A stretch of DNA of 64,000 nucleotides from a virus. Where the stretch lies: positions 47,556 through 111,555 of IMG/VR virus record IMGVR_UViG_3300036852_000353; one strand, 5' to 3'. The notes below the pieces were generated by a model. That model saw only the letters and a program-made list of their open reading frames with translations, was not told where the DNA came from and did not search any database. Within the stretch, counting starts at the first letter, position 1; each line of letters opens with the position of its first letter. Made by a program: the position numbers and the translations under genes. Positions 35,454-51,216 of the stretch are shown one piece after another.

Positions 35454-35467
35454 GTTTCACGTGGAAC
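35454..35467. repeat. parS-type site 1
   Basis: GTTTCACGTGGAAC. Supplies the stop codon (TCC ACG TGA) of the gene at 35457-35870. Confidence 0.85.
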
Positions 35468-35870
35468 CAGCGATGCGCCGGAGCTTCTTCAGAGCAGCCC
35501 TCGACGTGCTTGTCAGGGCGGACTCCTCGACATCGCCGATCAGCTTCAGCAACGCCCGCGCTTCCTCATACCTCAGCGGCTTCAGCGGCCGGGGCCCTCG
35601 GTTGCCGCCCGAGTGGGAACAGCGCGTTCGCCGGTCACTGAACTCCGGGTCTAGCTCGCTGCGCCACTGCCGGTAGTCGTCCTGCGCAACGAGGTTGTTC
35701 AGAGTGACAGTGACTTCTGCGCCACACAGAAGACAACGCGCTGGCCAGCGGGCGTTTGTGTCGCCGGGGTACTCTGCGGTGGACGCGTACTCGTTGCGGT
35801 CCAGTACTGCGGAACGCTCCGCCTCGCTCAGATCACGTGCGTAGTTGCGTGGCCGGTCAATGTACGCCAC
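35457..35870 (-). CDS. Zn-binding protein, 137 aa
   Basis: Helical start, CLLCGAEVTVTLNN and RCSH suggest a zinc finger; basic C-terminus ending AGST. Stop codon lies inside parS site 1. GTG 35870. Confidence 0.6.
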   Translation of the reverse strand: MAYIDRPRNYARDLSEAERSAVLDRNEYASTAEYPGDTNARWPARCLLCGAEVTVTLNNLVAQDDYRQWRSELDPEFSDRRTRCSHSGGNRGPRPLKPLRYEEARALLKLIGDVEESALTSTSRAALKKLRRIAGST

Positions 35871-35881
35871 GGTTCTCCTCT

Positions 35882-36091
35882 CTATGTTTCACGTGGAACA
35901 TCGACCGGCTCGTTCTTGATGACGATCCGGTGGGTGCGCTGGCCGTCGGCGTACTGCGCCGTGACCAGCAAGTCACCGGTGCCTGGGTCGTTCTCCATGG
36001 ACAGAATCTGGCCGCCGGACGTCTCAGGGTGTGCGGACAGTTCGTTGCGGATCTTCGTACGCAGCTCGATGAATGCGTCTCGGCTGTTCAT
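35882..36091 (-). CDS. Unknown protein, 69 aa
   Basis: MNSRDAFIELRTKIRNEL start set by ACAAGGAACTC. Beta-rich end; the last codons VDVPRET are read from parS site 2. Confidence 0.6.
   Translation of the reverse strand: MNSRDAFIELRTKIRNELSAHPETSGGQILSMENDPGTGDLLVTAQYADGQRTHRIVIKNEPVDVPRET
35886..35899. repeat. parS-type site 2
   Basis: GTTTCACGTGGAAC, read as VPRET at the end of the gene at 35882-36091. Confidence 0.85.
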
Positions 36092-36111
36092 GAGTTCCTT
36101 GTAGGTAGGCA

Positions 36112-36273
36112 CTACGCCTCGACGATCTCCAGGAAGAACAGCTCGCCGCTACTCTCATCCTCCACGCCGATCACTTCCTTGACACCCGTGCCGTCGATGG
36201 GTGACGCGTTGAGGGTGCTGGTCTCGCGGTTGATGGTGCGGATCAGCAGATCGCGCAGATCGCTCTTGGTCAT
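36112..36273 (-). CDS. Unknown protein, 53 aa
   Basis: MTKSDLRDLLIRTINRETST..., acidic end GELFFLEIVEA. GAAAGGAACACC before ATG 36273. Confidence 0.6.
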   Translation of the reverse strand: MTKSDLRDLLIRTINRETSTLNASPIDGTGVKEVIGVEDESSGELFFLEIVEA

Positions 36274-36307
36274 GGTGTTCCTTTCGGCGGTGGTCTTCCT
36301 GGTGGAT

Positions 36308-36321
36308 GTTTCACGTGGAAC
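36308..36321. repeat. parS-type site 3
   Basis: GTTTCACGTGGAAC; gives the stop codon of the gene at 36311-36790. Confidence 0.85.
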
Positions 36322-36790
36322 ATGGCGCGATGCCGCGCTCGGCACGGAACTCGTTGATGGCCGCGGTGCAGCAGACCGGCTCGCCGATCACGCTGAGGCC
36401 ATCCTCCTGCCCGAACTCCGACACCTCGCTGTTGTTCCACAACTCCTCCCACTGGCGATCGCAGTGGGAGCAGTAGTCATACCCGTCAGACTCGATGCGC
36501 GCCTCGATGACGTTCGGGTGCTGCAGCATGCCGCCGCGCAGCACTTCGCAGCGCTTCTGGTAATCGCCCTCAATGTCACGACTGATAAGGCTGTCGCTCA
36601 TGGAGAGACCCATGCCGACGTCACCGAGGCGTTTCGGCAGGATGGTCAGCTCGAACTGCTGACCCCAGACCAGCCCTTCGAGGGGGTCGCCCCACGTGTC
36701 TTTGAATCCGAGGCTGGCGATGGACATGTGGGTCTTCTGGGGACGCACGACTGCGACGACCTGCCAGTTGTCCCGCTTGGTTTTCTTCAT
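36311..36790 (-). CDS. Unknown protein, 159 aa
   Basis: VVAVVRPQKTHMSI start, Cys pair YCSHCDRQW and CCTAAI near the end. AAGGAGTGATCC before ATG 36790. Ends in parS site 3 (CST stop). Confidence 0.6.
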   Translation of the reverse strand: MKKTKRDNWQVVAVVRPQKTHMSIASLGFKDTWGDPLEGLVWGQQFELTILPKRLGDVGMGLSMSDSLISRDIEGDYQKRCEVLRGGMLQHPNVIEARIESDGYDYCSHCDRQWEELWNNSEVSEFGQEDGLSVIGEPVCCTAAINEFRAERGIAPCST

Positions 36791-36793
36791 GGA

Positions 36794-37099
36794 TCACTCC
36801 TTGGTTTCACGTGGAACATCGCCCTTGCCGTGTGCTGTGGTTGTAGCGGATCCGGCCTTGTACCCGGCCGCCCACATACGGGCGAGGAGATCCCGAAGCA
36901 GTGCGGCCTTGCTGCCAGGACCGTTGAGCAGGTCCAGCATGAGCGAAGACCGAGTCACTGCCACGGCTGCTGCACACGCCATCGCGTGGAGTTCATCGCG
37001 CTCGACGGGGCAGCCGGGCGGCAAGCTGATCCAGTCCTGGCCGTCCAGCATGGCGTCGAAATAGGAGAAGGCGATGTCACCAGCACTTTCCGTGCTCAC
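36794..37099 (-). CDS. Unknown protein, 101 aa
   Basis: Helical, begins MSTESAGDIAFSYFDAM. C-terminal DVPRETKE is encoded by parS site 4. GTG 37099 overlaps the upstream stop. Confidence 0.6.
   Translation of the reverse strand: MSTESAGDIAFSYFDAMLDGQDWISLPPGCPVERDELHAMACAAAVAVTRSSLMLDLLNGPGSKAALLRDLLARMWAAGYKAGSATTTAHGKGDVPRETKE
36804..36817. repeat. parS-type site 4
   Basis: GTTTCACGTGGAAC. Confidence 0.85.
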
Positions 37100-37287
37100 G
37101 CTTCCTCCGATGTTTCACGTGGAACATTCGCGGCGCCGTTGCCGACGAGGTGGTTCCAGAACTGTTCGGAGTGGCTGGGATCACCGCCGTACTCCGCCCA
37201 GGCCTCGACGATGGTGGCCTGCAGCATGGCGACCACCGGGTAGGGCATCTCGGCGGGCGGTATGATGACGGCGGGGATTTCAGGCAT
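37096..37287 (-). CDS. Unknown protein, 63 aa
   Basis: Begins MPEIPAVIIPPAEMP; ends NVPRETSEEA with the last part from parS site 5. First gene after parA in the transcript. Confidence 0.6.
   Translation of the reverse strand: MPEIPAVIIPPAEMPYPVVAMLQATIVEAWAEYGGDPSHSEQFWNHLVGNGAANVPRETSEEA
37112..37125. repeat. parS-type site 5
   Basis: GTTTCACGTGGAAC inside the 3' end of the gene at 37096-37287. Confidence 0.85.
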
Positions 37288-37299
37288 GTCGGCTCCTAT

Positions 37300-37313
37300 G
37301 TTTCACGTGGAAC
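37300..37313. repeat. parS-type site 6, directly after parA
   Basis: GTTTCACGTGGAAC begins immediately after the parA stop codon. Confidence 0.88.
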
Positions 37314-37314
37314 A

Positions 37315-38130
37315 TCAGCCGATGCTCCGGGCGGCCAGCTCGCGTGCGGCCTCGCGGTAGGCCTTCGCGCCCTTGCCGGTCGTGTCATAGGTCAGGATCG
37401 TCTCGCCGTGGCTGGGCGCTTCGCCCATCTTGGTCGAGCGGGGGATCTTGGCCTCCATGATCTGCTCGGGGAAGTATGCGCGTACCTCCTTCGCGACCTC
37501 CCGGGACAGCCGGATCGACGGGTTGAACATCGTCAGCAGCACCAGGGAGATGCGCAGCTCCTGGTTGAGATGCTGCTGCACAGTGCCAATCGTCTTCATC
37601 AGCAGGCTGACGCCTTCCAGCGCGTAGTACTCGCACTGGATCGGCATGAGGACCTCCCGCCCAGCCGTCAGCGCGTTGACGGTGAGCAGACCCAGGCTCG
37701 GTGGGCAGTCGATGAGGATGTAGTCGAACGGCATCTCACTGGCCTCGATGGCGTTCTTCAGCCGGTTCTCCCGGGAGACCAGAGAGACCAGCTCGATCTC
37801 CGCACCGGCGAGGTCGATGTGGGACGGCACGCAGTAGAGATTCTTCGAGAACGCCGTCTCCTGCATGACGTCGTCCAGCGGCTTGCTGTCGATGAGGACG
37901 TTGTAGACGGACAGCATGTCGTCGCTGTGATGGTCGATCCCGAGTGCGGTGGACGCGTTGCCCTGCGGGTCGAGATCGATGATCAGGACGGCGTTGCCGT
38001 ACTCAGCGAGCGACGCACCGAGGTTGACCGTGCTGGTGGTCTTGCCGACGCCGCCCTTCTGGTTGGCGACGACGAGGATGCGGGTCTGCTCCGGGCGCGG
38101 CAGGAGGGTGCCGGGGATTCCGGTGGTCAT
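37315..38130 (-). CDS. parA: ParA-family chromosome/plasmid partition ATPase
   Basis: 271 aa. Deviant Walker A KGGVGKTTSTVNL (~25-37), A' DLDPQGNASTALGIDHH, Walker B IDCPPSLGLLTVNA, and QCEYYALEGVSLL. Length and sequence are much closer to chromosomal ParA/Soj of Streptomyces than to plasmid ParA with an N-terminal HTH. ParA binds DNA non-specifically with ATP and moves ParB-parS complexes. No ParB is seen in the window. parS sites flank it on both sides (37300, 38156). AAAGGACACCACC sets ATG 38130. Confidence 0.93.
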   Translation of the reverse strand: MTTGIPGTLLPRPEQTRILVVANQKGGVGKTTSTVNLGASLAEYGNAVLIIDLDPQGNASTALGIDHHSDDMLSVYNVLIDSKPLDDVMQETAFSKNLYCVPSHIDLAGAEIELVSLVSRENRLKNAIEASEMPFDYILIDCPPSLGLLTVNALTAGREVLMPIQCEYYALEGVSLLMKTIGTVQQHLNQELRISLVLLTMFNPSIRLSREVAKEVRAYFPEQIMEAKIPRSTKMGEAPSHGETILTYDTTGKGAKAYREAARELAARSIG

Positions 38131-38155
38131 GGTGGTGTCCTTTGCTGGTGGTGAT

Positions 38156-38169
38156 GTTTCACGTGGAAC
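38156..38169. repeat. parS-type site 7, upstream of parA
   Basis: GTTTCACGTGGAAC just upstream of the parA ribosome binding site. Confidence 0.88.
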
Positions 38170-38193
38170 ATCGAATGTTCTGGGCGGCCAGCC

Positions 38194-38505
38194 TCAGCCG
38201 ACGTAGACGATCGTGTCGGCGCGCATCAGGAACGCGGTGGGGGTCTCGCCCTCGCAGGTGCCCCAGCACTCTTCGTTGCCAGTGCAGCCATCGGGACAGG
38301 AAGGCGCGGCGGCGGAGACGATCTCGACCGTTGTGTCTTCACGTTGTGCCGTGGTCAGGGGGATGAGCCAGTGGTCTTCGCCGTAGAAGCGGTGGTCATC
38401 GACTCCTTCCAGAGCGAAGACCGTCGCGGTCCACGGGGCGGTGGTGCCATCGCCTCCCATCTGGTGGTGGTAGGCGGCGGTGATCTTTCCGGAGTAGCCG
38501 GGCAT
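38194..38505 (-). CDS. Unknown Cys-containing protein, 103 aa
   Basis: MPGYSGKITAAYHHQMGGD..., with CPDGCTGNEECWGTC near residue 75-90, a likely metal or disulfide site. Precedes parA in the transcript. Confidence 0.6.
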   Translation of the reverse strand: MPGYSGKITAAYHHQMGGDGTTAPWTATVFALEGVDDHRFYGEDHWLIPLTTAQREDTTVEIVSAAAPSCPDGCTGNEECWGTCEGETPTAFLMRADTIVYVG

Positions 38506-38526
38506 CGTGTTCCTTTCAGTGGTGAT

Positions 38527-38540
38527 GTTTCACGTGGAAC
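38527..38540. repeat. parS-type site 8
   Basis: GTTTCACGTGGAAC between the genes at 38194 and 38543. Confidence 0.85.
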
Positions 38541-38542
38541 AT

Positions 38543-38824
38543 TCAGTTGTCATCGGTGTTCCGGCCGACGAGATTCGACAGCAGCTCAATGATCTGGGCC
38601 TGGTTGCGGTCGATCTTCGAGTTCAGTTCACGGACCTCATCAGTGAGCCTCCCTACCTTCTGGTCCAGGCTGTCCACCTTCTGGTCGACGTTGCTCACCT
38701 TGAGCTGGAGCGTCGTCAGCTCGCTCTTGATGATCCCGAACTCACGAACGTTCTGTGCCTGAGCCTCTTCGAACCGGCGAGTCAGCGCAGCGATCTCGGC
38801 CTGTGCGATCTCGTCTTCGGGCAT
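38543..38824 (-). CDS. Coiled-coil protein, 93 aa
   Basis: Almost the whole chain is heptad-patterned (KVSNVDQKVDSLDQKVGRLT), suggesting a long parallel coiled coil. No known domain. Confidence 0.65.
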   Translation of the reverse strand: MPEDEIAQAEIAALTRRFEEAQAQNVREFGIIKSELTTLQLKVSNVDQKVDSLDQKVGRLTDEVRELNSKIDRNQAQIIELLSNLVGRNTDDN

Positions 38825-38837
38825 GGTGTTCTCCTAT

Positions 38838-38851
38838 GTTTCACGTGGAAC
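38838..38851. repeat. parS-type site 9
   Basis: GTTTCACGTGGAAC. Confidence 0.85.
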
Positions 38852-38855
38852 ATCG

Positions 38856-39041
38856 TCAGTCGTCGGGGTTGCACTGGTGGCTGTAGACCACCATCCGCGC
38901 ATCGGACTTGCCGAAGGAACCGAGACCGTGCAGGTCGTAGACCATGCCGGTACGGAACCCGCACGGGGTGTGGATGAGATGGACCAGGTGCGGGAAGTAG
39001 CCGCCGCCGCTCTCGGCCCGCCAGTCAGGTGGTAGTTGCAT
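38856..39041 (-). CDS. Unknown protein, 61 aa
   Basis: MQLPPDWRAESGGGYFPHLVH..., aromatic/His-rich, ends HQCNPDD. Confidence 0.55.
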   Translation of the reverse strand: MQLPPDWRAESGGGYFPHLVHLIHTPCGFRTGMVYDLHGLGSFGKSDARMVVYSHQCNPDD

Positions 39042-39059
39042 GAGTGTCTCCTCGTCGAT

Positions 39060-39073
39060 GTTTCACGTGGAAC
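39060..39073. repeat. parS-type site 10
   Basis: GTTTCACGTGGAAC; contains the stop codon of the gene at 39063-39377. Confidence 0.85.
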
Positions 39074-39377
39074 GTTCGCTGGCCCGCTCCGCCTTCAGTT
39101 CCTTCTCGTACTGAGTGAGAGCGGTAGCGTAGGAGTCGAGGCGGCGGCCGACGGCCTGGTTCGTAAGGTCACCACGGCGCTTCCACCCATCCTGGGTGTG
39201 GCAGACGGCGTCCTTGGGTGCGCCTTCCTCCTCTGCCTCTATACAGGCACGGGCGACATAGTCAGCGCGCAGACCGCCATCGACCAGATAGGCAACGAGG
39301 TAGCGGTAGCCGCGGTGGCGGGCGGGGTTGGTGACGTGCTGGTCGCCGGTCCCATAGGGCGGCTTGAAGGTGGGCAT
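39063..39377 (-). CDS. Unknown protein, 104 aa
   Basis: Begins MPTFKPPYGTGDQHV; helical, ends KAERASERST with the stop inside parS site 10. Confidence 0.58.
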   Translation of the reverse strand: MPTFKPPYGTGDQHVTNPARHRGYRYLVAYLVDGGLRADYVARACIEAEEEGAPKDAVCHTQDGWKRRGDLTNQAVGRRLDSYATALTQYEKELKAERASERST

Positions 39378-39386
39378 GATGTCCTC

Positions 39387-39611
39387 TCAGTCGGTGGATG
39401 TTTCACGTGGAACATCGGACAGCTCGCCATCCCCCAGCGTGAAAGCACGTGGAGTACCGGCATTCCAGGCGTCGATGAACGGCTGCGCCCTGGCCTGCAT
39501 GCCATGATGCTTGAACCGGTGGAAAGCCACGCCGTCAGTGCCCACCCAGAAGAGGGTGCCGTCGTACACCCCAGGCTGCTCCACGCCATAGGCGATCTCG
39601 CGCTCAGCCAT
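39387..39611 (-). CDS. Unknown protein, 74 aa
   Basis: MAEREIAYGVEQPGVYDGTL..., beta-rich; C-terminal DVPRETSTD comes from parS site 11. Confidence 0.58.
   Translation of the reverse strand: MAEREIAYGVEQPGVYDGTLFWVGTDGVAFHRFKHHGMQARAQPFIDAWNAGTPRAFTLGDGELSDVPRETSTD
39400..39413. repeat. parS-type site 11
   Basis: GTTTCACGTGGAAC. Confidence 0.85.
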
Positions 39612-39879
39612 CGCCCGGCTCCGATGTTTCACGTGGAACATTGGCGATGGATCGGTCCCAGCCCTCTCGCCAGGGAGAAGTGCTGGTGTAACCCAGCTCA
39701 ACAGAGAGCGCTTCGGCGAGATCCGAGACGATGCGGTAGGCATCGTCGGACAGCTCCTCCCACCTCTCGTCGCTCTCGTCGATCTGCTCGTACTCCGCCT
39801 GCTGGCGGTCGGCGTCCCAGTCCACGACTTGCTGAAGTAGGAGGCGGACGGAGGGGGTGAGTTCACCGATCTTGTTCAT
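39604..39879 (-). CDS. Unknown acidic helical protein, 91 aa
   Basis: MNKIGELTPSVRLLLQQVVDW... with many Asp/Glu. Ends NVPRETSEPGDG through parS site 12. Confidence 0.58.
   Translation of the reverse strand: MNKIGELTPSVRLLLQQVVDWDADRQQAEYEQIDESDERWEELSDDAYRIVSDLAEALSVELGYTSTSPWREGWDRSIANVPRETSEPGDG
39626..39639. repeat. parS-type site 12
   Basis: GTTTCACGTGGAAC. Confidence 0.85.
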
Positions 39880-40036
39880 GGGCGGTGCTTTCTGTTGGTG
39901 TTTCACGTGGAACATCGTTGTCGGGTGGGATGACCAACTTCGGCAGGCGGACGCCAGGGTCCGGAGTAATCAGGCCGAAGGCCCAGCCCAGGAGGCGGCA
40001 CCAGTAGTGGGCGATCGCCTCCCTGAGTTCACTCAC
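39863..40036 (-). CDS. Small protein, 57 aa
   Basis: VSELREAIAHYWCRLLGWAFGLI may be amphipathic or membrane-associated. Ends through parS site 13 (DVPRETPTEST...). GTG 40036 after GGGAGGCGCCG. Confidence 0.55.
   Translation of the reverse strand: MSELREAIAHYWCRLLGWAFGLITPDPGVRLPKLVIPPDNDVPRETPTESTAHEQDR
39900..39913. repeat. parS-type site 13
   Basis: GTTTCACGTGGAAC. Confidence 0.85.
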
Positions 40037-40283
40037 CGGCGCCTCCCGATGTTTCACGTGGAACATCGGCCCGACGGAAGTACTCCGCCCACACCTCACG
40101 TTCCTCGTCCGTCATGGTGGTGTCAGGCTTGCGGTGCAGGAACACCGTGTGGCCGCAGACGCCGCCAACGGTCATGTAGGTGCAGCCGGGAGCACACTCC
40201 ATGATCGTGACGTCTTTTGTTTCGTCGCACTCGTCCGCCGGGCAGACTGGCCACGCCTTCCAGGCGTCGAGCGGCTCACTCAC
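40029..40283 (-). CDS. Unknown Cys-containing protein, 84 aa
   Basis: CPADEC and CAPGCTYMTVGGVCGH suggest zinc binding. GTG 40283 after GGAGTCCGCCG. Ends ADVPRETSGGAGE through parS site 14. Confidence 0.58.
   Translation of the reverse strand: MSEPLDAWKAWPVCPADECDETKDVTIMECAPGCTYMTVGGVCGHTVFLHRKPDTTMTDEEREVWAEYFRRADVPRETSGGAGE
40051..40064. repeat. parS-type site 14
   Basis: GTTTCACGTGGAAC. Confidence 0.85.
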
Positions 40284-40611
40284 CGGCGGACTCCGATGTT
40301 TCACGTGGAACATTGCTCTGCTCGCGAAGCGCGTAGTAGAGCCGCTTCGCAGTGGCGTTGTCATTCACGAAGGTGCGCAGAGCCTGCTGAGCTGCCGGTG
40401 TACGGACGCGCTGCTGGTGGGTCCAGAAGAGGGCGAGCGCGATCCCGATGTCCTGCTCGGTCATCTTCACGCGCCACTTGTGACCGCTGTTATGCGCACG
40501 GTGGAGTGGCCCGACGAGGTCAGCGGTCGGCCCCACATGCCTGCTCTCGGGGCTGCTGGTCATGTTGAGCAGGATCTGGAACTGCCCGGGGGTCAGGCTG
40601 ATTTCTTCCAT
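40276..40611 (-). CDS. Unknown protein, 111 aa
   Basis: MEEISLTPGQFQILLNMTSS..., helical; ends NVPRETSESAGE through parS site 15. Confidence 0.58.
   Translation of the reverse strand: MEEISLTPGQFQILLNMTSSPESRHVGPTADLVGPLHRAHNSGHKWRVKMTEQDIGIALALFWTHQQRVRTPAAQQALRTFVNDNATAKRLYYALREQSNVPRETSESAGE
40298..40311. repeat. parS-type site 15
   Basis: GTTTCACGTGGAAC. Confidence 0.85.
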
Positions 40612-40633
40612 GGGTGTCCTTGGTAGTGGGGAT

Positions 40634-40647
40634 GTTTCACGTGGAAC
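40634..40647. repeat. parS-type site 16
   Basis: GTTTCACGTGGAAC; stop codon of the gene at 40637-40891 lies in it. Last of the dense cluster. Confidence 0.85.
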
Positions 40648-40891
40648 ATTCAGGAGCTGGATCCTGATTGTTCCAGTAGTCGTTGTCCTGGCGGGCAGCT
40701 TCCCGCGGGGTGAGGCCGTCCCCCTCGGCGATGCGCTTGCGCTGGACGTAGACGAGGCGTTCGGCCCGGATGTCCTCATAGAGGCGCCCCTCCCACCACA
40801 CGCACATGCTGCATCCGGTGCAGTAGTCGTGATCGTAGGGATCTTCCCAGTCGCCGTACTTCAGGCCATAGGGGTCAAAGGTTGTGGTCAT
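40637..40891 (-). CDS. Unknown Cys-containing protein, 84 aa
   Basis: DYCTGCSMCVWW (CxxCxxC) then a basic helical part; ends PECST. ATG 40891 after AAGGAGGGGCT. Confidence 0.6.
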   Translation of the reverse strand: MTTTFDPYGLKYGDWEDPYDHDYCTGCSMCVWWEGRLYEDIRAERLVYVQRKRIAEGDGLTPREAARQDNDYWNNQDPAPECST

Positions 40892-40910
40892 AGCCCCTCC
40901 TTGCAGCGGG

Positions 40911-40920
40911 CTTCCTTGTC
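40911..40920 (-). promoter_or_regulatory. Start-associated GACAAGGAAG motif
   Basis: Upstream of the 40637 gene, which also has a nearer AGGAGG. Confidence 0.6.
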
Positions 40921-40930
40921 GGTGGTGTGG

Positions 40931-41308
40931 TTACAGCGGGCACTTCTCGCAGTGCATGGGCTTGCCGTCGGACTTGCGGACCAGCTGGCCGTCGCGGATC
41001 TCGTAGGGGTCGATGATGTCGGCCGCGATTTCGAGTACGTGAATGGTCTGGGGAACAATGCTGGAGTCTTCGAACGCGCTCTCCGCCGTCTTCACGTGGT
41101 GCGCCTCCTCGCGGAGCTTCTCCGCCTCACGGTGCGCACGGTCGTCCTCGACCCAGTTGAGCAGGCCGTGGAGGTAGTCGTCGTCCTCGCTGCCGCCCTC
41201 GACCGCCTGGTAGCCGTTGTGGTCCTTGGGGTGGTGGGCGATCTCCTGCCTGGCCGTGCGCGCCGTCTTGTTGACGAAGTTGTAGACCAGGTCACGGGCT
41301 ACGCTCAT
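40931..41308 (-). CDS. Unknown protein, 125 aa
   Basis: Helical, charged; ends with a HCEKCPL Cys pair. Start overlaps the upstream stop. Confidence 0.58.
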   Translation of the reverse strand: MSVARDLVYNFVNKTARTARQEIAHHPKDHNGYQAVEGGSEDDDYLHGLLNWVEDDRAHREAEKLREEAHHVKTAESAFEDSSIVPQTIHVLEIAADIIDPYEIRDGQLVRKSDGKPMHCEKCPL

Positions 41309-41610
41309 GTCTCCTCCTTCTCGTATCCCTCGCCACGGAGGTCGGCCTTCGCGATGATCTCGCTGGCCACGTCGACCGCGGCCAGGAGCGTGCGGTCGCA
41401 GAACTCCCCGAAGAAATAGGAGTGGCCGACGCTGTATAGGTGCCAGCCGGTCTGTGAGCCGGGCTCCTTACGGGAGCGGGCCCGCTTCTCCAGTTCGTAG
41501 ACCATGCCGAACACCTCGGTCTGCCGGTTGCCGTTGGGCAGGCAGATCCAGCCGAAGCCGTTGTCGGCCTCGATGTAGCGGACGTTGTCGGCCTGTCGGT
41601 AGCGGGCCAT
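41305..41610 (-). CDS. Unknown protein, 101 aa
   Basis: MARYRQADNVRYIEADNGFG..., beta-rich then helical. ATG 41610 (not GTG 41613) fits AGGAGAAGTG. Confidence 0.58.
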   Translation of the reverse strand: MARYRQADNVRYIEADNGFGWICLPNGNRQTEVFGMVYELEKRARSRKEPGSQTGWHLYSVGHSYFFGEFCDRTLLAAVDVASEIIAKADLRGEGYEKEET

Positions 41611-41936: not shown

Positions 41937-41967
41937 CACGCCTCCGTACACCGGCGGTAGCGGGCCA

Positions 41968-45143: not shown

Positions 45144-45177
45144 CGAAGCCCCCGGGACGCCGATCCCGGGGGCTTCG
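45144..45177 (-). terminator. Terminator hairpin
   Basis: 14-bp stem CGAAGCCCCCGGGA/TCCCGGGGGCTTCG with a 6-nt loop. Confidence 0.8.
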
Positions 45178-45211
45178 TGTTGTGTGTCCGGTTGTGGTGT
45201 ACCGCTGGGCG

Positions 45212-45463
45212 TCAGGTCTTCTCCTGTGCCTGCCGGTGCGCAGGCAGGGCCAGGGCGATGTCCACCACCTCCTCCAGGGTGCTGCGCAGCACCCACGGAT
45301 CGTTCGGGCTGTTGTAGGGGCGCACCCCCCAGCGCTGGTAGTACCCGTTGCTCATGAATCTGCGGACGGTGGCGGTGTAGACGTCGCTGCCCGTGGGCCT
45401 GACGTGGTAGACGTACGTGCCGTCCTTGTGGAGGGTGCAGTTGTCCCGTTTCAGTCGGGTCAT
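45212..45463 (-). CDS. Unknown protein, 83 aa
   Basis: Basic/aromatic start MTRLKRDNCTLHKDGTYVYH. A GTCAAGGAAGCC variant of the start-associated motif precedes ATG 45463. Confidence 0.6.
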   Translation of the reverse strand: MTRLKRDNCTLHKDGTYVYHVRPTGSDVYTATVRRFMSNGYYQRWGVRPYNSPNDPWVLRSTLEEVVDIALALPAHRQAQEKT

Positions 45464-45485
45464 GATGGCTTCCTTGACAGTCTGC

Positions 45486-46013
45486 TCAGACAGACGCGGA
45501 GGCGCGGCGCTGTTCGATGGCCTCACGCCAAAGCTGCGTCAGGATGCCGTAGTTCTGGGGAGACCATTCGTGATCGTCCAGGCGGAATCCGTACGCGGTG
45601 TAGGCGTCCACGTCGAGGCCGAGCAGTTGCATGCCGTGCTTCCAGGCCCAGCCGTCCGCTTCCTTGCCGCTGTCATGGGCATACAGCTGCGCCGAGACAC
45701 AATGGCTTCCCGAGCCGATGTCGAGCGTGCCGGGGTCCACCTCGGTGTGCCAGGAGGGGCGTGTCCTGTTCAGGTACGCGATGCCCCCGGGGACACGCAT
45801 CTCAAAGCCGGTGGTGGCAGTGGTCATGGTCATTCCTTTCAGCTCGCCGTCGTCATGCACGGACGGCTCCTTCTCATCCGGATCCAGCAGCCGGGGCGCC
45901 GAGACCAGCATGCCCAGGAACACCACGGCAGCGATCAAGTCCGCGTACCACAGCATGCCCTGAGCGATCAGTTCAGGCGTCGGCTTGACGGTGTAGGTGT
46001 ACATACTGGACAT
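45486..46013 (-). CDS. Membrane-anchored protein, possible internal start
   Basis: 175 aa. One transmembrane segment (~25-48) then a soluble domain from ~residue 63. A GAAAGGA before ATG 45827 could give a separate 113-aa soluble form (MTTATTGFEMRV...). Unknown function. Confidence 0.58.
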   Translation of the reverse strand: MSSMYTYTVKPTPELIAQGMLWYADLIAAVVFLGMLVSAPRLLDPDEKEPSVHDDGELKGMTMTTATTGFEMRVPGGIAYLNRTRPSWHTEVDPGTLDIGSGSHCVSAQLYAHDSGKEADGWAWKHGMQLLGLDVDAYTAYGFRLDDHEWSPQNYGILTQLWREAIEQRRASASV

Positions 46014-46018
46014 GGCAG

Positions 46019-46498
46019 TCAGGTGCGGCCGGGCTTGGTGAAGACCCACACGTCGTCACCGTCGTTCACGTCGTCAACCCAGATCTCAGAGTCACCCATG
46101 ACGGCGCTCTTGATCCTGCTGCGGCCGTGGTCGTTCAGCCAGTTCCAGCGCACCTGACCGCAGCGCTCTTCGAGGTACTCGTTCATCGGCCAGGCGAGGT
46201 CGGCGTAGCGGGCCGTGAAATGACAGCCCATCTCCTTGACCTGGCCGGGAGTGAGGAACATGCCGCCGTAGTGCTTGCGAGCGGCCTTCAGTGTGGCCAG
46301 GACACCGTCCTCGGTGTCCACACCCTTCCACTCCAAGCTGTAGACGAACTTGAGGGCCACGGCAGCAAGCAGGACGTCAGGGTTCTTCCCGTCCATCACG
46401 GCGTCAACGTCTTCGTCCCTCCACGGCGTGCCGTACAGCTCGGAGTAGAGGACGGACCAGACGGCGGGGATGCTGAAGCGGGTGTCGTCGGCATTCAT
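46019..46498 (-). CDS. Unknown protein, 159 aa
   Basis: MNADDTRFSIPAVWSVLYSE..., helical/alpha-beta; GACAAGGAAGGC leader. Confidence 0.6.
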   Translation of the reverse strand: MNADDTRFSIPAVWSVLYSELYGTPWRDEDVDAVMDGKNPDVLLAAVALKFVYSLEWKGVDTEDGVLATLKAARKHYGGMFLTPGQVKEMGCHFTARYADLAWPMNEYLEERCGQVRWNWLNDHGRSRIKSAVMGDSEIWVDDVNDGDDVWVFTKPGRT

Positions 46499-46503
46499 GG
46501 TGC

Positions 46504-46513
46504 CTTCCTTGTC
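46504..46513 (-). promoter_or_regulatory. Start-associated GACAAGGAAG motif
   Basis: Upstream of the gene at 46019-46498, adjacent to parS site 17. Confidence 0.7.
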
Positions 46514-46522
46514 GGGGTCAGT

Positions 46523-46536
46523 GTTTCACGTGGAAC
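46523..46536. repeat. parS-type site 17
   Basis: GTTTCACGTGGAAC. Confidence 0.85.
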
Positions 46537-46548
46537 ATCCACGCGGGG

Positions 46549-46674
46549 TTACTTCTTGGGTGCGGGCGGCGGGGTTGGTACGCCGGGGCAGGTGTAGATC
46601 TTGCCGTCCCCCGACGGCCAGTCATGGCCGGGGTGCGGGCTGGAGTTGGGACACCGGCCGGGTCCAGCAGACAT
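46549..46674 (-). CDS. Small protein, 41 aa
   Basis: MSAGPGRCPNSSPHPGHDW... with two Cys and Pro-rich end. GAGAGGAACACAC before ATG 46674. Confidence 0.5.
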   Translation of the reverse strand: MSAGPGRCPNSSPHPGHDWPSGDGKIYTCPGVPTPPPAPKK

Positions 46675-46685
46675 GTGTGTTCCTC

Positions 46686-47036
46686 TCAGAACGGCGGGCA
46701 GCCGTCGGGGTAGGTGTGTTTGCAGGTGCCGTCGCAGTCCGGGTGATGGCCCGGGACGACGGCGATTTGGCGGGGGACCGGTGCAGCCGGAGCGTGCCAC
46801 TTCGGATCACCCAGCAGCGAGCACGCAAAGCCGCCGATGACGGCGTCCGTGCTCTTGTCGAAGGTGTCGACCCAGCCGTAGCCGTCGCATTCAGGGCAGC
46901 GTTCCGGCTCGTGGAAGACACCGTCCGGGTTGGCGCCACAGGACACCTCGTTGGCGGCCAATGACACGGGCGGGTCGTCCTTGGTCAGCTCGTCGGAGCA
47001 GTGGATACAGCGTCGAGGAGTCACAGGCTCATTCAT
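46686..47036 (-). CDS. Zn-finger protein (DnaJ-type CxxCxGxG-like)
   Basis: 116 aa. RCIHCSDEL, CPECDGYGW and CDGTCKH form three to four CxxC units. Likely zinc protein; role unknown. Confidence 0.6.
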   Translation of the reverse strand: MNEPVTPRRCIHCSDELTKDDPPVSLAANEVSCGANPDGVFHEPERCPECDGYGWVDTFDKSTDAVIGGFACSLLGDPKWHAPAAPVPRQIAVVPGHHPDCDGTCKHTYPDGCPPF

Positions 47037-47376
47037 CGGAACGGCCAGCGAGGATGTGGTCGGCCAGCGCGAGGGCGGCAGCACGCGAGCTCGCACCATC
47101 GAACGCGCGATTCCACTTGCACTCGTCACGCAGCAGCTGGGACAGCAGCGGCAGGGATGCGGGGCCGAGGGCGAGGAACACCTCGGCGGCGCCGCCCCAG
47201 AAGAACTGGGCAACCGTCTGAGTCGGCGACTGGGTCTGTGTGCAGACCAGCCCCACCCGGAAGTCACGGTCGTGGATCAGGTCGGTGGGGATGTGCTTGC
47301 TGCCCGCGTGCAGGTGGTCGAGGTAGTCGGCCGCCTCGATCAGGCGGGCGCTGTCTTGCGTAGCGTCGGTCGTCAT
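47029..47376 (-). CDS. Unknown protein, 115 aa
   Basis: Helical; HAGSKHIPTDLIHDRDFRV and FFWGGAAEVFLALGP. GACAAGGAAGCGTG leader. Confidence 0.6.
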   Translation of the reverse strand: MTTDATQDSARLIEAADYLDHLHAGSKHIPTDLIHDRDFRVGLVCTQTQSPTQTVAQFFWGGAAEVFLALGPASLPLLSQLLRDECKWNRAFDGASSRAAALALADHILAGRSDE

Positions 47377-47380
47377 CACG

Positions 47381-47390
47381 CTTCCTTGTC
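47381..47390 (-). promoter_or_regulatory. Start-associated GACAAGGAAG motif
   Basis: Upstream of the gene at 47029-47376, 5 bases from parS site 18. Confidence 0.7.
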
Positions 47391-47395
47391 GGTGT

Positions 47396-47409
47396 GTTTC
47401 ACGTGGAAC
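47396..47409. repeat. parS-type site 18
   Basis: GTTTCACGTGGAAC. Confidence 0.85.
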
Positions 47410-47417
47410 ATCGTCGG

Positions 47418-47744
47418 TCAGTCGAGGTAGTCGTGGGCCCGCAGATCGGGGTGGACGGCAATGGCGTTGACCACGGCGACCACGTCCCCGCCGCGGCGGT
47501 GGCGGCCAAGGGCGGTTGTCACCTGGTCGGCCGTCAGGCCACGCTCCAGCAGTGCACCGTAGAGCGTTGCCCGGAGGTCAGCCTGAACAGCGTCCAGACC
47601 CATCACACCCGCCTGGTGCACGGCGCCGATCATGTAGATCAAGTGCAGGCGCTCCTTCTCTTCGAGTTTGGAGTCCTCCGGGTGGGGACCGGCGGCACGG
47701 CGCAGACGGTCGAGGATGTGGCCGGGAGCGGCGGAAACGATCAT
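47418..47744 (-). CDS. Unknown protein, 108 aa
   Basis: MIVSAAPGHILDRLRRAAGP..., helical. AGGAGG before ATG 47744; coupled to 47744-47935. Confidence 0.58.
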   Translation of the reverse strand: MIVSAAPGHILDRLRRAAGPHPEDSKLEEKERLHLIYMIGAVHQAGVMGLDAVQADLRATLYGALLERGLTADQVTTALGRHRRGGDVVAVVNAIAVHPDLRAHDYLD

Positions 47745-47935
47745 CATCCCTCCTTTTTGTGATTGAGGTAGCCGATCACGGTGGAAGCAAGTACACCCAC
47801 GGCCAGGAGGACGGCGACCAGGAGGATGATCAGGACCCAGGCGCCGATCCCGAGGCCGATCCCGCAGCCCTGCGGGTCGGCCTTGCGCATGTCGGGCGGG
47901 CACCAGAAGTCGTGGTACCAGCCGGGGATGATCAT
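47744..47935 (-). CDS. Small membrane protein, 63 aa
   Basis: MIIPGWYHDFWCPPDMRK... and one transmembrane segment (~32-55), NHKKEG end. Confidence 0.65.
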   Translation of the reverse strand: MIIPGWYHDFWCPPDMRKADPQGCGIGLGIGAWVLIILLVAVLLAVGVLASTVIGYLNHKKEG

Positions 47936-48126
47936 GCGTCGGCCTCCAGCATCTCGACGAAGCCGTCCCAGGCCAGGCAGTCGCCCTGATGGAAGTGGGC
48001 GTTGACGTAGGCGACGGCGACGAAGTCCGTGATCTCACCGACCGGGATGTGCAGGTGGTTGGCGGTGTAGTGGTAGGCCGCCTCCAGCTGCTGGCGGGTG
48101 CAGTTGCGCAGGATGTTGATGATCAC
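47932..48126 (-). CDS. Unknown protein, 64 aa
   Basis: Helical, IINILRNCTRQQLEAAYHYT... GTG 48126 overlaps the upstream stop (GTGA). Confidence 0.58.
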   Translation of the reverse strand: MIINILRNCTRQQLEAAYHYTANHLHIPVGEITDFVAVAYVNAHFHQGDCLAWDGFVEMLEADA

Positions 48127-48425
48127 GATGTGTACTCCGTACTGTCGGGCGCCCACCCATTACCGTGCTCGCGGTTCATTCCCTTGATCCGATTCGCCTG
48201 CTGTGTGATCCGCTCGGCGTAGGCCAGCGCCGCATCCGGGGTTAGGAGCAGCTCCAGCTCCCGGCCGTCCGGTGCGATGGTCGGCAGACGCACAAGGCGC
48301 GCCCACGGCCCATTGAGGGTCGAGGCGTTGGGCTCAAGCGTCTCGGGGTTGTAGCACGCCCAGTTGACGGCGCTCCATATGCCGCCGGGCAGGGTGGTGC
48401 GCCAGGGTGTCTTCTGTCTGGCCAT
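48123..48425 (-). CDS. Unknown protein, 100 aa
   Basis: MARQKTPWRTTLPGGIWSAV..., with a helical ALAYAERITQQANRIKG segment. Confidence 0.58.
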   Translation of the reverse strand: MARQKTPWRTTLPGGIWSAVNWACYNPETLEPNASTLNGPWARLVRLPTIAPDGRELELLLTPDAALAYAERITQQANRIKGMNREHGNGWAPDSTEYTS

Positions 48426-48760
48426 CAGCTCTCCTTCGGTACCTCGATGTCGGGCAGCACGGCGAGGACCAGGCGGCGTGCCCAGGCGTCGGCCTCCTGA
48501 ACTTCCTCCCAGTGCACCTCATCGCCCCAGGTCCATACGGCGTTCGTGCCGTAGTGCTCGTATTGCTCCTTGACGATGTCGATGATCTCGTCGAGGGACA
48601 GGTGATCCGGCAGTGGCTCGTCCTCGTCGGTTCTGTTGCGCCAGTACTGCGAGCACAGGCCGGTGACCAGAGCGCTGAGTTCGAACTCCCACTTGGTGCG
48701 GGGCTCGATCCAGCGGCACGGAATGGTGCCGTCGAACTTGGTGCCCCGGTGGATCTTCAC
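48425..48760 (-). CDS. Unknown protein, 111 aa
   Basis: VKIHRGTKFDGTIPCRWIEP..., alpha/beta, acidic. GAGGAATGAC before GTG 48760. Confidence 0.58.
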   Translation of the reverse strand: MKIHRGTKFDGTIPCRWIEPRTKWEFELSALVTGLCSQYWRNRTDEDEPLPDHLSLDEIIDIVKEQYEHYGTNAVWTWGDEVHWEEVQEADAWARRLVLAVLPDIEVPKES

Positions 48761-48761
48761 G

Positions 48762-48935
48762 TCATTCCTCCAGACGGCTGCGGTCGTGCTCGATGTTGTG
48801 CTCCGGCGCCAGCGCACCAGTCAGGCTGATGCCACGGAGGCCAGCCATCGCGTAGGCGTACTCGGCTTCCTCACCGCAGCCTGCGTCGTCGGGCTCGTCG
48901 GGGTGGATGGGGCAGGGATCAAGGTCCGTGGTCAT
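48762..48935 (-). CDS. Small acidic protein, 57 aa
   Basis: MTTDLDPCPIHPDEPDDAGC..., Cys/His start may bind metal. It precedes 48425-48760 and follows 48932-49171 with an overlap. Confidence 0.58.
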   Translation of the reverse strand: MTTDLDPCPIHPDEPDDAGCGEEAEYAYAMAGLRGISLTGALAPEHNIEHDRSRLEE

Positions 48936-49171
48936 GACTGTTGGTACCTTTCGTTGAACAGGTGGCGAGCGAACCGGCTCAGCTCGAACTCGACTTGGTG
49001 ATGCACTCGCTCCGTGGCGATGTGCGTCGACAGGTCGGCCTCAACAGGGAGCACGCTCACCACTCCCTTGATCATCTTCAAGGCGTTGATGATGTGCTCG
49101 GCGTCGTCGTCACGGATGTCGTCGGCCGGAGTGACGACGTATCCGGCGTGACGGGTGGTCACGATGATCAC
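48932..49171 (-). CDS. Unknown protein, 79 aa
   Basis: Alpha/beta, IIVTTRHAGYVVTPADDIRD...; GTG start overlapping the upstream stop. Confidence 0.58.
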   Translation of the reverse strand: MIIVTTRHAGYVVTPADDIRDDDAEHIINALKMIKGVVSVLPVEADLSTHIATERVHHQVEFELSRFARHLFNERYQQS

Positions 49172-49428
49172 CTCGGATCGTGGGTCGGTTCGGCGGGAAC
49201 GTGGCGGGCGTTGTGCAGCAACGCTTGGCGGGCGCGCTCATTGAGGCGCTCTTGCCCTGCGGCCTCCCGGGCGTCGTGCTCCTGGTCGATGTCAGCGAAC
49301 AGGTCGGCGTCATCAAGGGTGTTGATGGCCTTCGCGATGGCGGCGTACACGCCGATGGCGCCGTCCCTGGCGATCTGCCGCAAGGCGTTGAGGGCGTTGA
49401 TCTGCTCGTCGATGGTGGGCTTGGACAT
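49168..49428 (-). CDS. Helical protein, 86 aa
   Basis: MSKPTIDEQINALNALRQIA..., predicted all-helical, charged. Confidence 0.58.
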   Translation of the reverse strand: MSKPTIDEQINALNALRQIARDGAIGVYAAIAKAINTLDDADLFADIDQEHDAREAAGQERLNERARQALLHNARHVPAEPTHDPR

Positions 49429-49446
49429 CAGTTCTCCTTTTCTCTT

Positions 49447-49731
49447 TCAGATACGGCGACGGCGACGTTCTAGAACAACCGACCCCTTCGGGACGACATG
49501 CGCCCGTGGATCACCGTCCTTCATGTCGATGTAGTCCACCGTCGGACCGGCGCCCCGGCGCGTCTCGCGTTTGCTCCACGGCAGTTCCGGGAACGCCTCA
49601 CGGGCCCGCTTCAGGCGACGCTTGATCGTTCCCACGCTCGTGCCGAACTCATCGGCCAGGGCGAGGAGCGATGCACCGGCCAGCCAGCGCAGAGCAACAT
49701 CCTTGGGCGTCAGGTCAGGGCGCTGGGCCAT
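49447..49731 (-). CDS. Sigma region 4-like HTH protein
   Basis: 94 aa. ASLLALADEFGTSVGTIKRRLKRAREA is a textbook helix-turn-helix of sigma-70 region 4/LuxR type; the end is Arg-rich (LERRRRRI). Probably a small transcription factor. Confidence 0.72.
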   Translation of the reverse strand: MAQRPDLTPKDVALRWLAGASLLALADEFGTSVGTIKRRLKRAREAFPELPWSKRETRRGAGPTVDYIDMKDGDPRAHVVPKGSVVLERRRRRI

Positions 49732-49749
49732 GTCAGTCCTCCTCTCGAT

Positions 49750-49763
49750 GTTTCACGTGGAAC
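49750..49763. repeat. parS-type site 19
   Basis: GTTTCACGTGGAAC; followed by GTC rather than the usual ATC/ATT. Confidence 0.85.
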
Positions 49764-49764
49764 G

Positions 49765-49971
49765 TCAGTCGTCGTAGTGCATCCGGATGCGCTCGCCGGG
49801 GTCGAACTCGGAGACCGTGCCGTTGCCCCACTGAATGAGGATCCGGCCGCGGTCGTTGGTGACCGGCTCGCCCGCCTGCCAGGTCAGGCGCCCAAACGCG
49901 CACCAGTCGCCCATCTTGATATCCCTGGCTGCCTTGGTCTCGGGCCGGGTGGTGTCGGTGGTGTTGTTCAT
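49765..49971 (-). CDS. Unknown protein, 68 aa
   Basis: MNNTTDTTRPETKAARDIKM..., beta-rich second half. GACAGGAATAGTC before ATG 49971. Confidence 0.58.
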   Translation of the reverse strand: MNNTTDTTRPETKAARDIKMGDWCAFGRLTWQAGEPVTNDRGRILIQWGNGTVSEFDPGERIRMHYDD

Positions 49972-50052
49972 GACTATTCCTGTCGGTGAATGCAAGGACG
50001 CGACCGCGCATCCTGCGTGATGCACGGCCGCGTCCGGTCCTATCGTGTCAGC

Positions 50053-50274
50053 TCACATCGCCTGCTGGCACGCCTGGTTGAAGACGAAACGGACCAGGGC
50101 ACGTGCCTGCATGACGGCGTCAGACAGGCTGCGGGCCTCGGCGCCATCGTCGAAACGGAAATGCATGCCGTCCTGGTGAACGATGAGTGCGCGGCCGTCG
50201 GTGAGGTCGGCATAGACCTCCTCGTAGGCTTCCAGCTTGGCGCCAAGATGTTCGATGTCGATGATCGTGTTCAT
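50053..50274 (-). CDS. Unknown protein, 73 aa
   Basis: MNTIIDIEHLGAKLEAYEEV...; AAGGACATC before ATG 50274. An upstream GTG would add a Cys-rich extension, judged less likely. Confidence 0.55.
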   Translation of the reverse strand: MNTIIDIEHLGAKLEAYEEVYADLTDGRALIVHQDGMHFRFDDGAEARSLSDAVMQARALVRFVFNQACQQAM

Positions 50275-50338
50275 GATGTCCTTCGAGTTGACGGAGCAGG
50301 CCCATTCTTTCAGGTCCCACTGACAGCGTGGGCATCTT

Positions 50339-50629
50339 TCAAGCGGGCACCCTCCCGCTGCCGCAGCAGTGACCACATTCCTTCGTGGGGAGGTCGGTGA
50401 CGTGCTTCCACGTCCGGCGGCGGATGATCTCGCGGCATGTGCTGGGGCAAATGCCGTACATGCTGGCCAGAGCGAGCATGCTGATATTGCCCTCGGCGTA
50501 CCACTGCCTCAGCTCACGCACCTTCGCCTCCGTCATCTTCGCGAGGGGGTGACGCTCGCCGGGCGGGGCGCCCTTGCGCAGCCCCCTGGTCCTGCCAGGC
50601 GGGTACGCCTCAGTCGTCGAAGTGTCCAT
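50339..50629 (-). CDS. HTH DNA-binding protein (resolvase/transposase-type HTH)
   Basis: 96 aa. GNISMLALASMYGICPSTCREIIRRRTW is a strong HTH; ends with a CGHCCGSG zinc knuckle. GACAAGGAAGAAGC leader. Confidence 0.7.
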   Translation of the reverse strand: MDTSTTEAYPPGRTRGLRKGAPPGERHPLAKMTEAKVRELRQWYAEGNISMLALASMYGICPSTCREIIRRRTWKHVTDLPTKECGHCCGSGRVPA

Positions 50630-50633
50630 GCTT

Positions 50634-50643
50634 CTTCCTTGTC
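50634..50643 (-). promoter_or_regulatory. Start-associated GACAAGGAAG motif
   Basis: Upstream of the HTH gene at 50339-50629. Confidence 0.7.
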
Positions 50644-50662
50644 GTGCAGCAGGTAACCGGCG

Positions 50663-50845
50663 TCAGCGCTGAAGCATGTGATGGAACCAGTCCTCGGCGG
50701 CCATGCCGTCGATGCACCAGCCGTACGGGCCCGCGGTGATGTCGCCGGGCTCCACCTTGAGACCCTCACGGGCGGCGATCTCCTGGATGTCCCGCCGGGT
50801 CCACTCGGAGGGCGGCTTGTCGCTCCACCGGGAGGTGTCAGACAT
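50663..50845 (-). CDS. Unknown protein, 60 aa
   Basis: MSDTSRWSDKPPSEWTRRDI..., helical. Start overlaps the upstream stop region; an in-frame ATG three bases earlier also exists. Confidence 0.55.
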   Translation of the reverse strand: MSDTSRWSDKPPSEWTRRDIQEIAAREGLKVEPGDITAGPYGWCIDGMAAEDWFHHMLQR

Positions 50846-51134
50846 CATCGCCCCCCTTGCTTTCGAGTGGCTCCCCGAACGTCATGACAATGCCGCCTGC
50901 GTAGATCTGCTGTGTGATGCGGGTGTGGGCCACGCGGGCCTGATACCTGGGGCGGCTGTCCGTATGGACCTTGCCGTCATACAGGTCGCGGGCCACGGCA
51001 AACGCCTCGTCGAAGTCGTGGGTCTCGTTGTGCATACGGCCCACCGGCCCCTTGAACACCTGTCCGGTGAACTCCCACCAGGTGTCATCGCCCAGCTTCT
51101 GGTACTGAACGCTGTAAGTGGTCTCGATCTCCAT
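50838..51134 (-). CDS. Unknown protein, 98 aa
   Basis: MEIETTYSVQYQKLGDDTWW..., beta-rich. GAAAGGACACCACG before ATG 51134. Confidence 0.58.
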   Translation of the reverse strand: MEIETTYSVQYQKLGDDTWWEFTGQVFKGPVGRMHNETHDFDEAFAVARDLYDGKVHTDSRPRYQARVAHTRITQQIYAGGIVMTFGEPLESKGGDDV

Positions 51135-51202
51135 CGTGGTGTCCTTTCGTAGATCCAGAGGGGCCGCCGTGCGCGACGGGGGCCCGTGCCAGGACCGGCG
51201 AT

Positions 51203-51216
51203 GTTTCACGTGGAAC
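51203..51216. repeat. parS-type site 20
   Basis: GTTTCACGTGGAAC; the last perfect copy. Confidence 0.85.

Follow-up and report, generated by a model that had tools for sequence, protein, structure and literature searches.

Bacteria mark their own chromosome for segregation with a short DNA tag, parS, which is read by ParB, a CTP-switched clamp, and handled together with the segregation motor ParA. The consensus parS of Bacillus is the 16-bp palindrome TGTTNCACGTGAAACA, of which natural variants exist (PMC7022226), and ParB of S. venezuelae spreads 2.5-3 kb from parS (PMC12511625). Some phages make use of such systems. Bacillus phage phi29, a 19-kb virulent podovirus of a sporulating host, is trapped in spores by the host ParB, Spo0J (PMC9437464, citing Meijer 2005). 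The extrachromosomal phages P1, N15 and mycobacteriophages of cluster A carry plasmid-type ParABS systems in which the phage encodes ParA (see also PMC7157519) and its own ParB with its own parS. Two other kinds of repeated phage sites are relevant here. Stoperators of cluster A mycobacteriophages are many short directional sites between genes, bound by the phage repressor, whereas start-associated sequences (SAS) of cluster K mycobacteriophages are non-palindromic 13-mers that contain the Shine-Dalgarno, lie 3-7 bp from the start and are absent from the host genome (PMC3203893). Here we describe a soil phage, probably of Streptomyces, and two relatives that carry 20 to 32 copies of a chromosomal-type parS, one before almost every gene in a block, and an altered ParA but no ParB.

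Distribution of the parS-like sites

The window analysed is a stretch of 64,000 nucleotides (positions 47,556 to 111,555) of the virus record IMGVR_UViG_3300036852_000353. The whole record is 111,555 bp long and has an exact 127-bp terminal repeat, so it is probably complete and a fragment artefact is unlikely. An earlier note on the window, made from the sequence alone, had described 20 identical parS sites in one orientation next to gene starts, 16 of them clustered, with a ParA resembling that of Streptomyces chromosomes and no ParB. We confirmed this observation. The sequence GTTTCACGTGGAAC occurs 20 times without mismatch, always on the + strand, and 16 copies lie within 5.2 kb (Table 1). 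The 20 matches on the - strand are the same near-palindromes read with 2 mismatches, and only one unrelated site with 3 mismatches was found. Shuffled sequences gave a mean of 4.9 matches (largest 12) at up to 3 mismatches, against 41 found, and chance is thus rejected. No further copies were found in the record outside the window. For 19 of the 20 sites a plausible start codon lies within 60 nt downstream on the coding (-) strand.

Table 1. Features of the locus, numbered as in the window. All sites are exact matches to GTTTCACGTGGAAC on the + strand; G001 and G160 are the related phages.
Feature	Position	Strand	Context	Site kept in
parS-like site 1	35454..35467	+	coding strand is -	
parS-like site 2	35886..35899	+	15 nt before gene start at 35870	
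parS-like site 3	36308..36321	+		G001, upstream of ortholog although moved
parS-like site 4	36804..36817	+	13 nt before gene 36311-36790	G001
parS-like site 5	37112..37125	+		
parS-like site 6	37300..37313	+	just downstream of parA; 12 nt before gene 37096-37287	G001 and G160
parS-like site 7	38156..38169	+	25 nt before parA start	G160, before parA
parS-like site 8	38527..38540	+		
parS-like site 9	38838..38851	+		
parS-like site 10	39060..39073	+		G160
parS-like site 11	39400..39413	+		G160
parS-like site 12	39626..39639	+		G160
parS-like site 13	39900..39913	+		
parS-like site 14	40051..40064	+		
parS-like site 15	40298..40311	+		G001 and G160
parS-like site 16	40634..40647	+		G001 and G160
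parS-like site 17	46523..46536	+		G001 and G160
parS-like site 18	47396..47409	+		
parS-like site 19	49750..49763	+		
parS-like site 20	51203..51216	+	no clear start within 60 nt	
ParA ATPase (271 aa), actinobacterial chromosomal type	37315..38130	-	PF13614, 3e-61; 63% to Streptomyces ParA; Arg equivalent to Bacillus Soj R189 replaced by Ser (residue 205)	
Small-gene block, genes of unknown function	35454..40647	-	16 sites, mostly one per gene junction	

Two related phages, of 116.7 and 104.3 kb, carry 24 and 32 sites, likewise clustered. Of the 76 sites in the three phages, 75 are identical and all point the same way, and one site is the perfect host palindrome. The median distance from the end of the site to the start codon over the three phages is 19 nt, with the Shine-Dalgarno downstream of the site. 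Site-bearing genes keep the site in other phages despite shuffled gene order (26/36 versus 14/239, p 2e-18).

We next compared the sites with chromosomal parS. The 14-bp core is exact and fits the Bacillus consensus, with T and A at the flanking positions in 68 and 73 of the 76 sites. The flanks (cgAT...ATcg) match those of 72 palindromic and 19 asymmetric windows from Streptomyces chromosomes. The assignment of the sequence to the Streptomyces parS class in the earlier note requires a correction, as GTTTCACGTGGAAC is there a minority, asymmetric variant. It occurs naturally as a minority in 39 of 41 Streptomyces genomes, with 0-5 copies in 40 of the 41 and 25 in the other, whereas the dominant sequence is GTTTCACGTGAAAC (7-36 copies). 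The variant is oriented so that the mRNA hairpin upstream of the ribosome site is weakened by a C.A mismatch in 76 of 76 sites (22-nt MFE of -2.2 for the actual site, -6.4 for the palindrome and -5.95 for the flipped site). The RNA hairpin as the functional element was therefore rejected. Stop-codon use does not explain the orientation either, since the TGA in the site ends an ORF of at least 40 codons in 30 of 76 cases, about the one third expected from frame alone.

The phage ParA and the search for a ParB

The ParA contains the Walker motif KGGVGKTT, which reads KGGVAKTT in G160. In the tree, the three phage ParAs are monophyletic (98/95) within the actinobacterial chromosomal clade (100/100). 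All three lost the arginine equivalent to R189 of Bacillus Soj, which is replaced by S, S and A in the phages but is present in 79/79 chromosomal ParAs. The equivalent of R218 is kept as K, R and R. In G000 and G001, two of the three phages, R/K is found where H. pylori Soj has a basic DNA-contact residue, so that loss of DNA binding is not shown.

A phage ParB with its own specificity elsewhere in the genome had been named beforehand as an observation that would contradict recruitment of host ParB. We searched the complete 111.5-kb record with PF02195 and with a profile of 55 chromosomal ParBs and found none, the best E value with the profile being 1.4. The two relatives also lack a ParB. The phages thus do not encode a self-contained ParABS system.

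Relatives and probable host

The host is inferred from relatives of the MCP, which were found in Streptomyces phage Dagobah (49.6%) and in 10 of 394 Streptomyces genomes. Dagobah has no site, and the ten Streptomyces genomes carry no array. In PLSDB only distant MCP relatives were found, so the same phage or array was not recovered as a plasmid or prophage in these searches. INPHARED contained no near DNA match. The sequences L382-L386 and a 48-kb contig with an identical MCP have no sites but are fragments. The phage encodes a tyrosine integrase. A hint of a Z-DNA polymerase (DpoZ) was far below the cut-off.

Interpretation

The interpretation in the earlier note, that the phage may recruit host ParB to partition or compact its genome, to titrate ParB or to silence the small-gene block, is partly supported. 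Chromosomal-type sites with matching flanks, a ParA from the actinobacterial chromosomal clade and the lack of a phage ParB in a probably complete genome and two relatives make recruitment of host ParB the natural reading, whereas the sequence does not decide between partition, silencing and titration. The note had not recognized that the variant is not the main one of the host, that its orientation is fixed relative to transcription, that the ParA has lost a universal DNA-binding arginine, or that phi29 is a precedent.

The explanation we favor, with only moderate confidence, is that the 20 sites form an orphan, host-type parS array. Host ParB would load at them and, by sliding, would cover the 5-kb block and part of the following 10 kb; given the spreading of S. 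venezuelae ParB, 16 sites in 5.2 kb would saturate the block. The coated phage DNA would then be handled by the host segregation machinery (ParA, SMC, pole or hyphal-tip anchoring), so that an extrachromosomal or stalled phage genome is positioned and inherited, probably including delivery into spores. The phage ParA, in this view, was taken from an actinobacterial chromosome and altered at a universal DNA-binding arginine, and acts as an adaptor or modulator of the host ParB complex and not as a plain copy of the host motor. In Bacillus, an ATP-Soj form that cannot bind DNA still supports origin trapping in sporulation (PMC9564211). The sites would sit in the gaps between genes, where they cost least, in the orientation that keeps the mRNA hairpin weak. 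The sequences themselves establish the identity, number, orientation and flanks of the sites, their conservation in two relatives, the absence of ParB, and the descent and substitution of ParA. Binding of host ParB is inferred from sequence alone, but is very probable; use for segregation or spore entry is also inferred and is about as likely as not, and the role of ParA and hairpin avoidance as the reason for the orientation are likewise inferences. Several findings fit this model less well. A site before nearly every gene, retained with the gene, is more than partition alone needs, the phage encodes a tyrosine integrase, so an integrated prophage may not need partition, and the loss of the R189 equivalent weakens a classical motor role. 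The fixed orientation is not explained by a symmetric ParB dimer.

A bolder reading, which remains possible but is rather unlikely, is that a temperate actinophage lineage has turned the host chromosome-segregation machinery into a combined inheritance and gene-control device. Host ParB loaded at a directional parS before each gene of an early block would both tether the phage genome to host segregation, into spores, and set expression, under a phage ParA altered so that it no longer acts as a nucleoid-walking motor.

Among the alternatives, silencing survives best, although we consider it unlikely. Host ParB loaded before each gene would block transcription of the small-gene block, in the manner of stoperators, keeping early genes off in a lysogen or during sporulation, and the phage ParA would modulate the silencing. 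One site per gene junction in the dense block, the fixed orientation, the short distance to the start codon, the inheritance of the site with the gene and a spacing of about 150-860 bp, within the spreading range of ParB, all agree with this. However, repression of transcription by ParB is not shown here, a symmetric ParB complex does not need fixed orientation, and no promoter was mapped in the gap of about 15-25 nt between site and gene.

A start-associated expression element, recognised by another phage or host factor or acting in the mRNA, is more doubtful. The resemblance to parS would then be ancestral or incidental. Fixed orientation, proximity to starts and retention with genes resemble SAS. 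However, fourteen core bases and the outer flanks equal the host parS, one site is the perfect host palindrome, and the C.A mismatch breaks the RNA hairpin, so an RNA-structure role is unlikely. Titration of ParB from the chromosome by replicating phage DNA, disturbing host segregation with phage ParA as an additional inhibitor, is very unlikely: although 20-32 sites per genome rival the 7-36 main chromosomal sites and a ParA lacking a conserved DNA-binding residue could be dominant-negative, parB is listed as non-essential in S. coelicolor (PMC7022226), so the gain is unclear, and a decoy needs neither gene-start placement nor orientation.

A phage with dozens of ParB loading sites, no ParB of its own and an altered ParA would be a natural experiment on what ParB does to DNA besides segregation, and on whether ParA needs DNA binding to work with ParB. 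It would extend host-ParB capture from one Bacillus phage to actinobacteria, make spore-borne inheritance of Streptomyces phages testable, and offer a compact parS array for imaging or plasmid stability in Streptomyces.

Comparison with known systems

Start-associated sequences share with the present sites their repetition, their mostly single orientation, their position upstream of starts and their retention with gene families, but the present motif is a near-palindrome, lies farther from the start and holds no Shine-Dalgarno. Stoperators share the arrangement of many short directional sites between genes, but are bound by the phage repressor, whereas here the sequence is that of the host ParB site. 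The plasmid-type systems of P1, N15 and cluster A mycobacteriophages share a phage-encoded ParA but include a ParB, which is lacking here. The chromosomal ParABS of Streptomyces shares the core, the flanks and a ParA of the same clade, and the phage locus differs from it by the minority variant, the single orientation, the spacing of about 350 bp, the lack of a ParB gene and the loss of the R189 equivalent. Finally, phi29 shares several copies of the same 14-mer in the phage genome (4 exact and 1 with one change) and a sporulating host, and the phages described here have the host parS without a phage ParB that phi29-type exploitation of host ParB would require. It differs by its 4-5 sites and lack of an annotated ParA, against 20-32 sites, a conserved ParA, an integrase and start-associated placement in a large siphovirus-type phage of an actinobacterium.

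Distribution of the sites and absence of a ParB gene

The 14-mer GTTTCACGTGGAAC occurs 20 times without mismatch, always on the + strand, and 16 of these copies lie within a single block. Shuffled sequence gives on average 4.9 matches at up to 3 mismatches, with a largest value of 12, against 41 found, half of which are the same sites read on the other strand. The window is part of a 111,555-bp IMG/VR virus record (hereafter G000), and all copies in that record are in the window. The record has an exact 127-bp terminal direct repeat, as expected of a closed assembly, so the genome is probably complete. A search with PF02195 found nothing in the record. A profile built from 55 chromosomal ParBs that lie next to the closest chromosomal ParAs also found nothing in any six-frame ORF of 30 aa or more (best E 1.4), whereas the same profile, as a positive control, recovered 91 ORFs in the chromosomal loci. 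The ParA encoded within the block is a clear ParA that is 63% identical to Streptomyces chromosomal ParA. The observation of the earlier note, repeated parS-type sites and a ParA without a ParB, therefore holds.

Coordinates of the sites, genes and contigs discussed in the text
Feature	Sequence	Position	Strand	Description
Block with 16 of the 20 sites	window	35,454-40,647	+	Exact copies of the 14-mer
ParA	window	37315-38130		Clear ParA
ORFs with sites read in frame	window	36794-37099, 39387-39611, 39604-39915		Sites read in frame at protein ends: C-termini ...NVPRETS / ...DVPRETK, and an alternative start MFHVKH
Possible decayed site	window	51678-51702		GTTTCATGCGGGAT, in the gap before gene 51219-51662, with the same flanks as site 20 of the 20 sites; may be chance
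Probable BldC-like regulator	window	14607-14921	-	NCBIfam BldC hit (E 3.5e-17) among the scanned window proteins, assigned to this ORF by eye (LTPRDVGKIFDVDARTVTKWATNGIIGFFRTPNGLRRY)
TROVE-domain (Ro60-like) protein	window	4713-6383	-	Conserved at 66% in the relative G001
Glycosyltransferase (chitin/hyaluronan synthase-like) and UDP-sugar dehydrogenase	window	22299-25157	-	Suggest phage-made polysaccharide
Tyrosine recombinase/integrase	G000 record, outside the window	18074-19006	-	84% identical in G001; suggests a temperate phage
Asymmetric parS variants in one Streptomyces-group genome	G012, contig C2	3.40-3.60 Mb		25 copies, often in tight pairs or triplets

Related phages and probable host

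At least two further phages carry the same arrangement. IMGVR_UViG_3300037518_000322 (G001, 116,662 bp) has a ParA 68% identical and 24 sites, one of them the perfect palindrome GTTTCACGTGAAAC, and IMGVR_UViG_3300044694_000082 (G160, 104,344 bp) has a ParA 67% identical and 32 sites. G001 has a 147-bp terminal repeat with 2 mismatches, whereas G160 shows none and may be a fragment. Neither has a ParB by the same searches. G000 and G001 share 94 reciprocal best hits. The major capsid proteins (MCP) of the two relatives are 77% and 86% identical to that of G000, and the nearest isolate is Streptomyces phage Dagobah (49.6%), which has no site. Ten of 394 Streptomyces genomes hold an MCP relative. 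The host is therefore inferred to be probably a Streptomyces or a near relative.

Two other phage-like sequences also contain parS sites. A low-GC phage-like contig (L400/L401, from G159, 169,219 bp, GC about 36% in its first 6.4 kb) carries 12 parS sites of mixed variant and orientation without a ParB_N hit, and is possibly an independent case. A phi29-like phage (L402, from G161, IMGVR_UViG_2974611801_000001) has at least 6 parS sites, one of which lies just upstream of the collar gene and reads MFHVEHR in frame.

The sites are of the chromosomal parS type

Over 76 sites in the three phages, the coding-strand consensus is cgAT-GTTCCACGTGAAAC-ATcg. In Streptomyces chromosomal loci, the flanks of 72 palindromic and 19 asymmetric site windows have the same profile, including positions outside the 14-mer. 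The variant fits the Bacillus consensus TGTTNCACGTGAAACA (PMC7022226) and occurs as a minority variant in 39 of 41 Streptomyces genomes (0-5 copies each, and 25 in one genome, G012, which also has 28 palindromes), whereas the palindrome has 7-36 copies per genome. Binding by host ParB is thus very likely, although it is inferred from sequence alone.

Orientation and association with gene starts

All 76 sites point the same way and 75 of 76 keep C at position 4, although the phages are diverged and a symmetric ParB dimer should accept T there. The TGA inside the site does not explain this, since upstream ORFs of at least 40 codons end there in 30 of 76 cases. Folding gives a possible reason. 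In the transcribed orientation the variant puts a C.A mismatch in the stem, and the 22-nt hairpin is -2.2 kcal/mol against -6.4 for the palindrome and -5.95 for the flipped site, weaker in all 76. With the start codon a median 19 nt downstream, avoidance of a stable hairpin next to the ribosome-binding site is a plausible inference, common descent of the sites being an alternative.

The sites are also associated with particular genes. Using gene calls from a simple model of our own, genes with a site upstream have orthologs with a site in 26 of 36 comparisons, against 14 of 239 for genes without (Fisher p 2e-18; within the 83-99 kb region of the record 14/16 against 5/16, p 0.003), although gene order is shuffled. 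Site and gene start travel or are kept together.

An altered ParA of chromosomal descent

The three phage ParAs form one clade (98/95) within the actinobacterial chromosomal clade (100/100). At residue 205, the position of Bacillus Soj R189, they have S, S and A where all 79 chromosomal sequences have R, and the nearby conserved D (residue 203) is N, whereas the R218 position stays basic. Conserved arginines are reported to mediate DNA binding of Soj (Hester and Lutkenhaus 2007, as cited in PMC9564211). Two of the phages have a basic residue at another position where H. pylori Soj has lysine, so loss of DNA binding is not shown. In Bacillus, Soj forms that cannot bind DNA still support origin trapping at the pole in sporulation (PMC9564211), which fits a phage ParA that has lost a DNA-binding residue.

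Possible mechanism and comparison with phage phi29

The best-supported reading is capture of host ParB for positioning and inheritance, probably into spores, with ParA as adaptor. ParB spreads 2.5-3 kb from parS in S. venezuelae (PMC12511625), and in this view sixteen sites in 5.2 kb would saturate the block. BldC controls Streptomyces development, so the probable BldC-like regulator may bear on a sporulation link. The analysis itself establishes the sequence, number, orientation and flanks of the sites, their conservation in two relatives, the absence of ParB, and the descent and substitution of ParA, whereas ParB binding, the host, the reason for the orientation, and the roles of the sites and of ParA are inferred. 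The interpretation in the earlier note, that the phage may recruit host ParB to partition or compact its genome, to titrate ParB or to silence the small-gene block, is only partly supported, as the sequences favor recruitment without deciding between its outcomes. The gene-start placement keeps silencing of the block open as a second or alternative function. An unrelated start element and titration are less likely.

In the literature searched, we found no arrays of dozens of sites, no start association with fixed orientation, no accompanying altered ParA, and no such case in an actinophage. Host-type parS in a phage without ParB is itself already known from phage phi29, the closest precedent. 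The phi29 genome carries four exact copies of the same 14-mer and one near copy, a site count that was confirmed here, and its entrapment in spores depends on the host ParB, Spo0J (PMC9437464, citing Meijer 2005).
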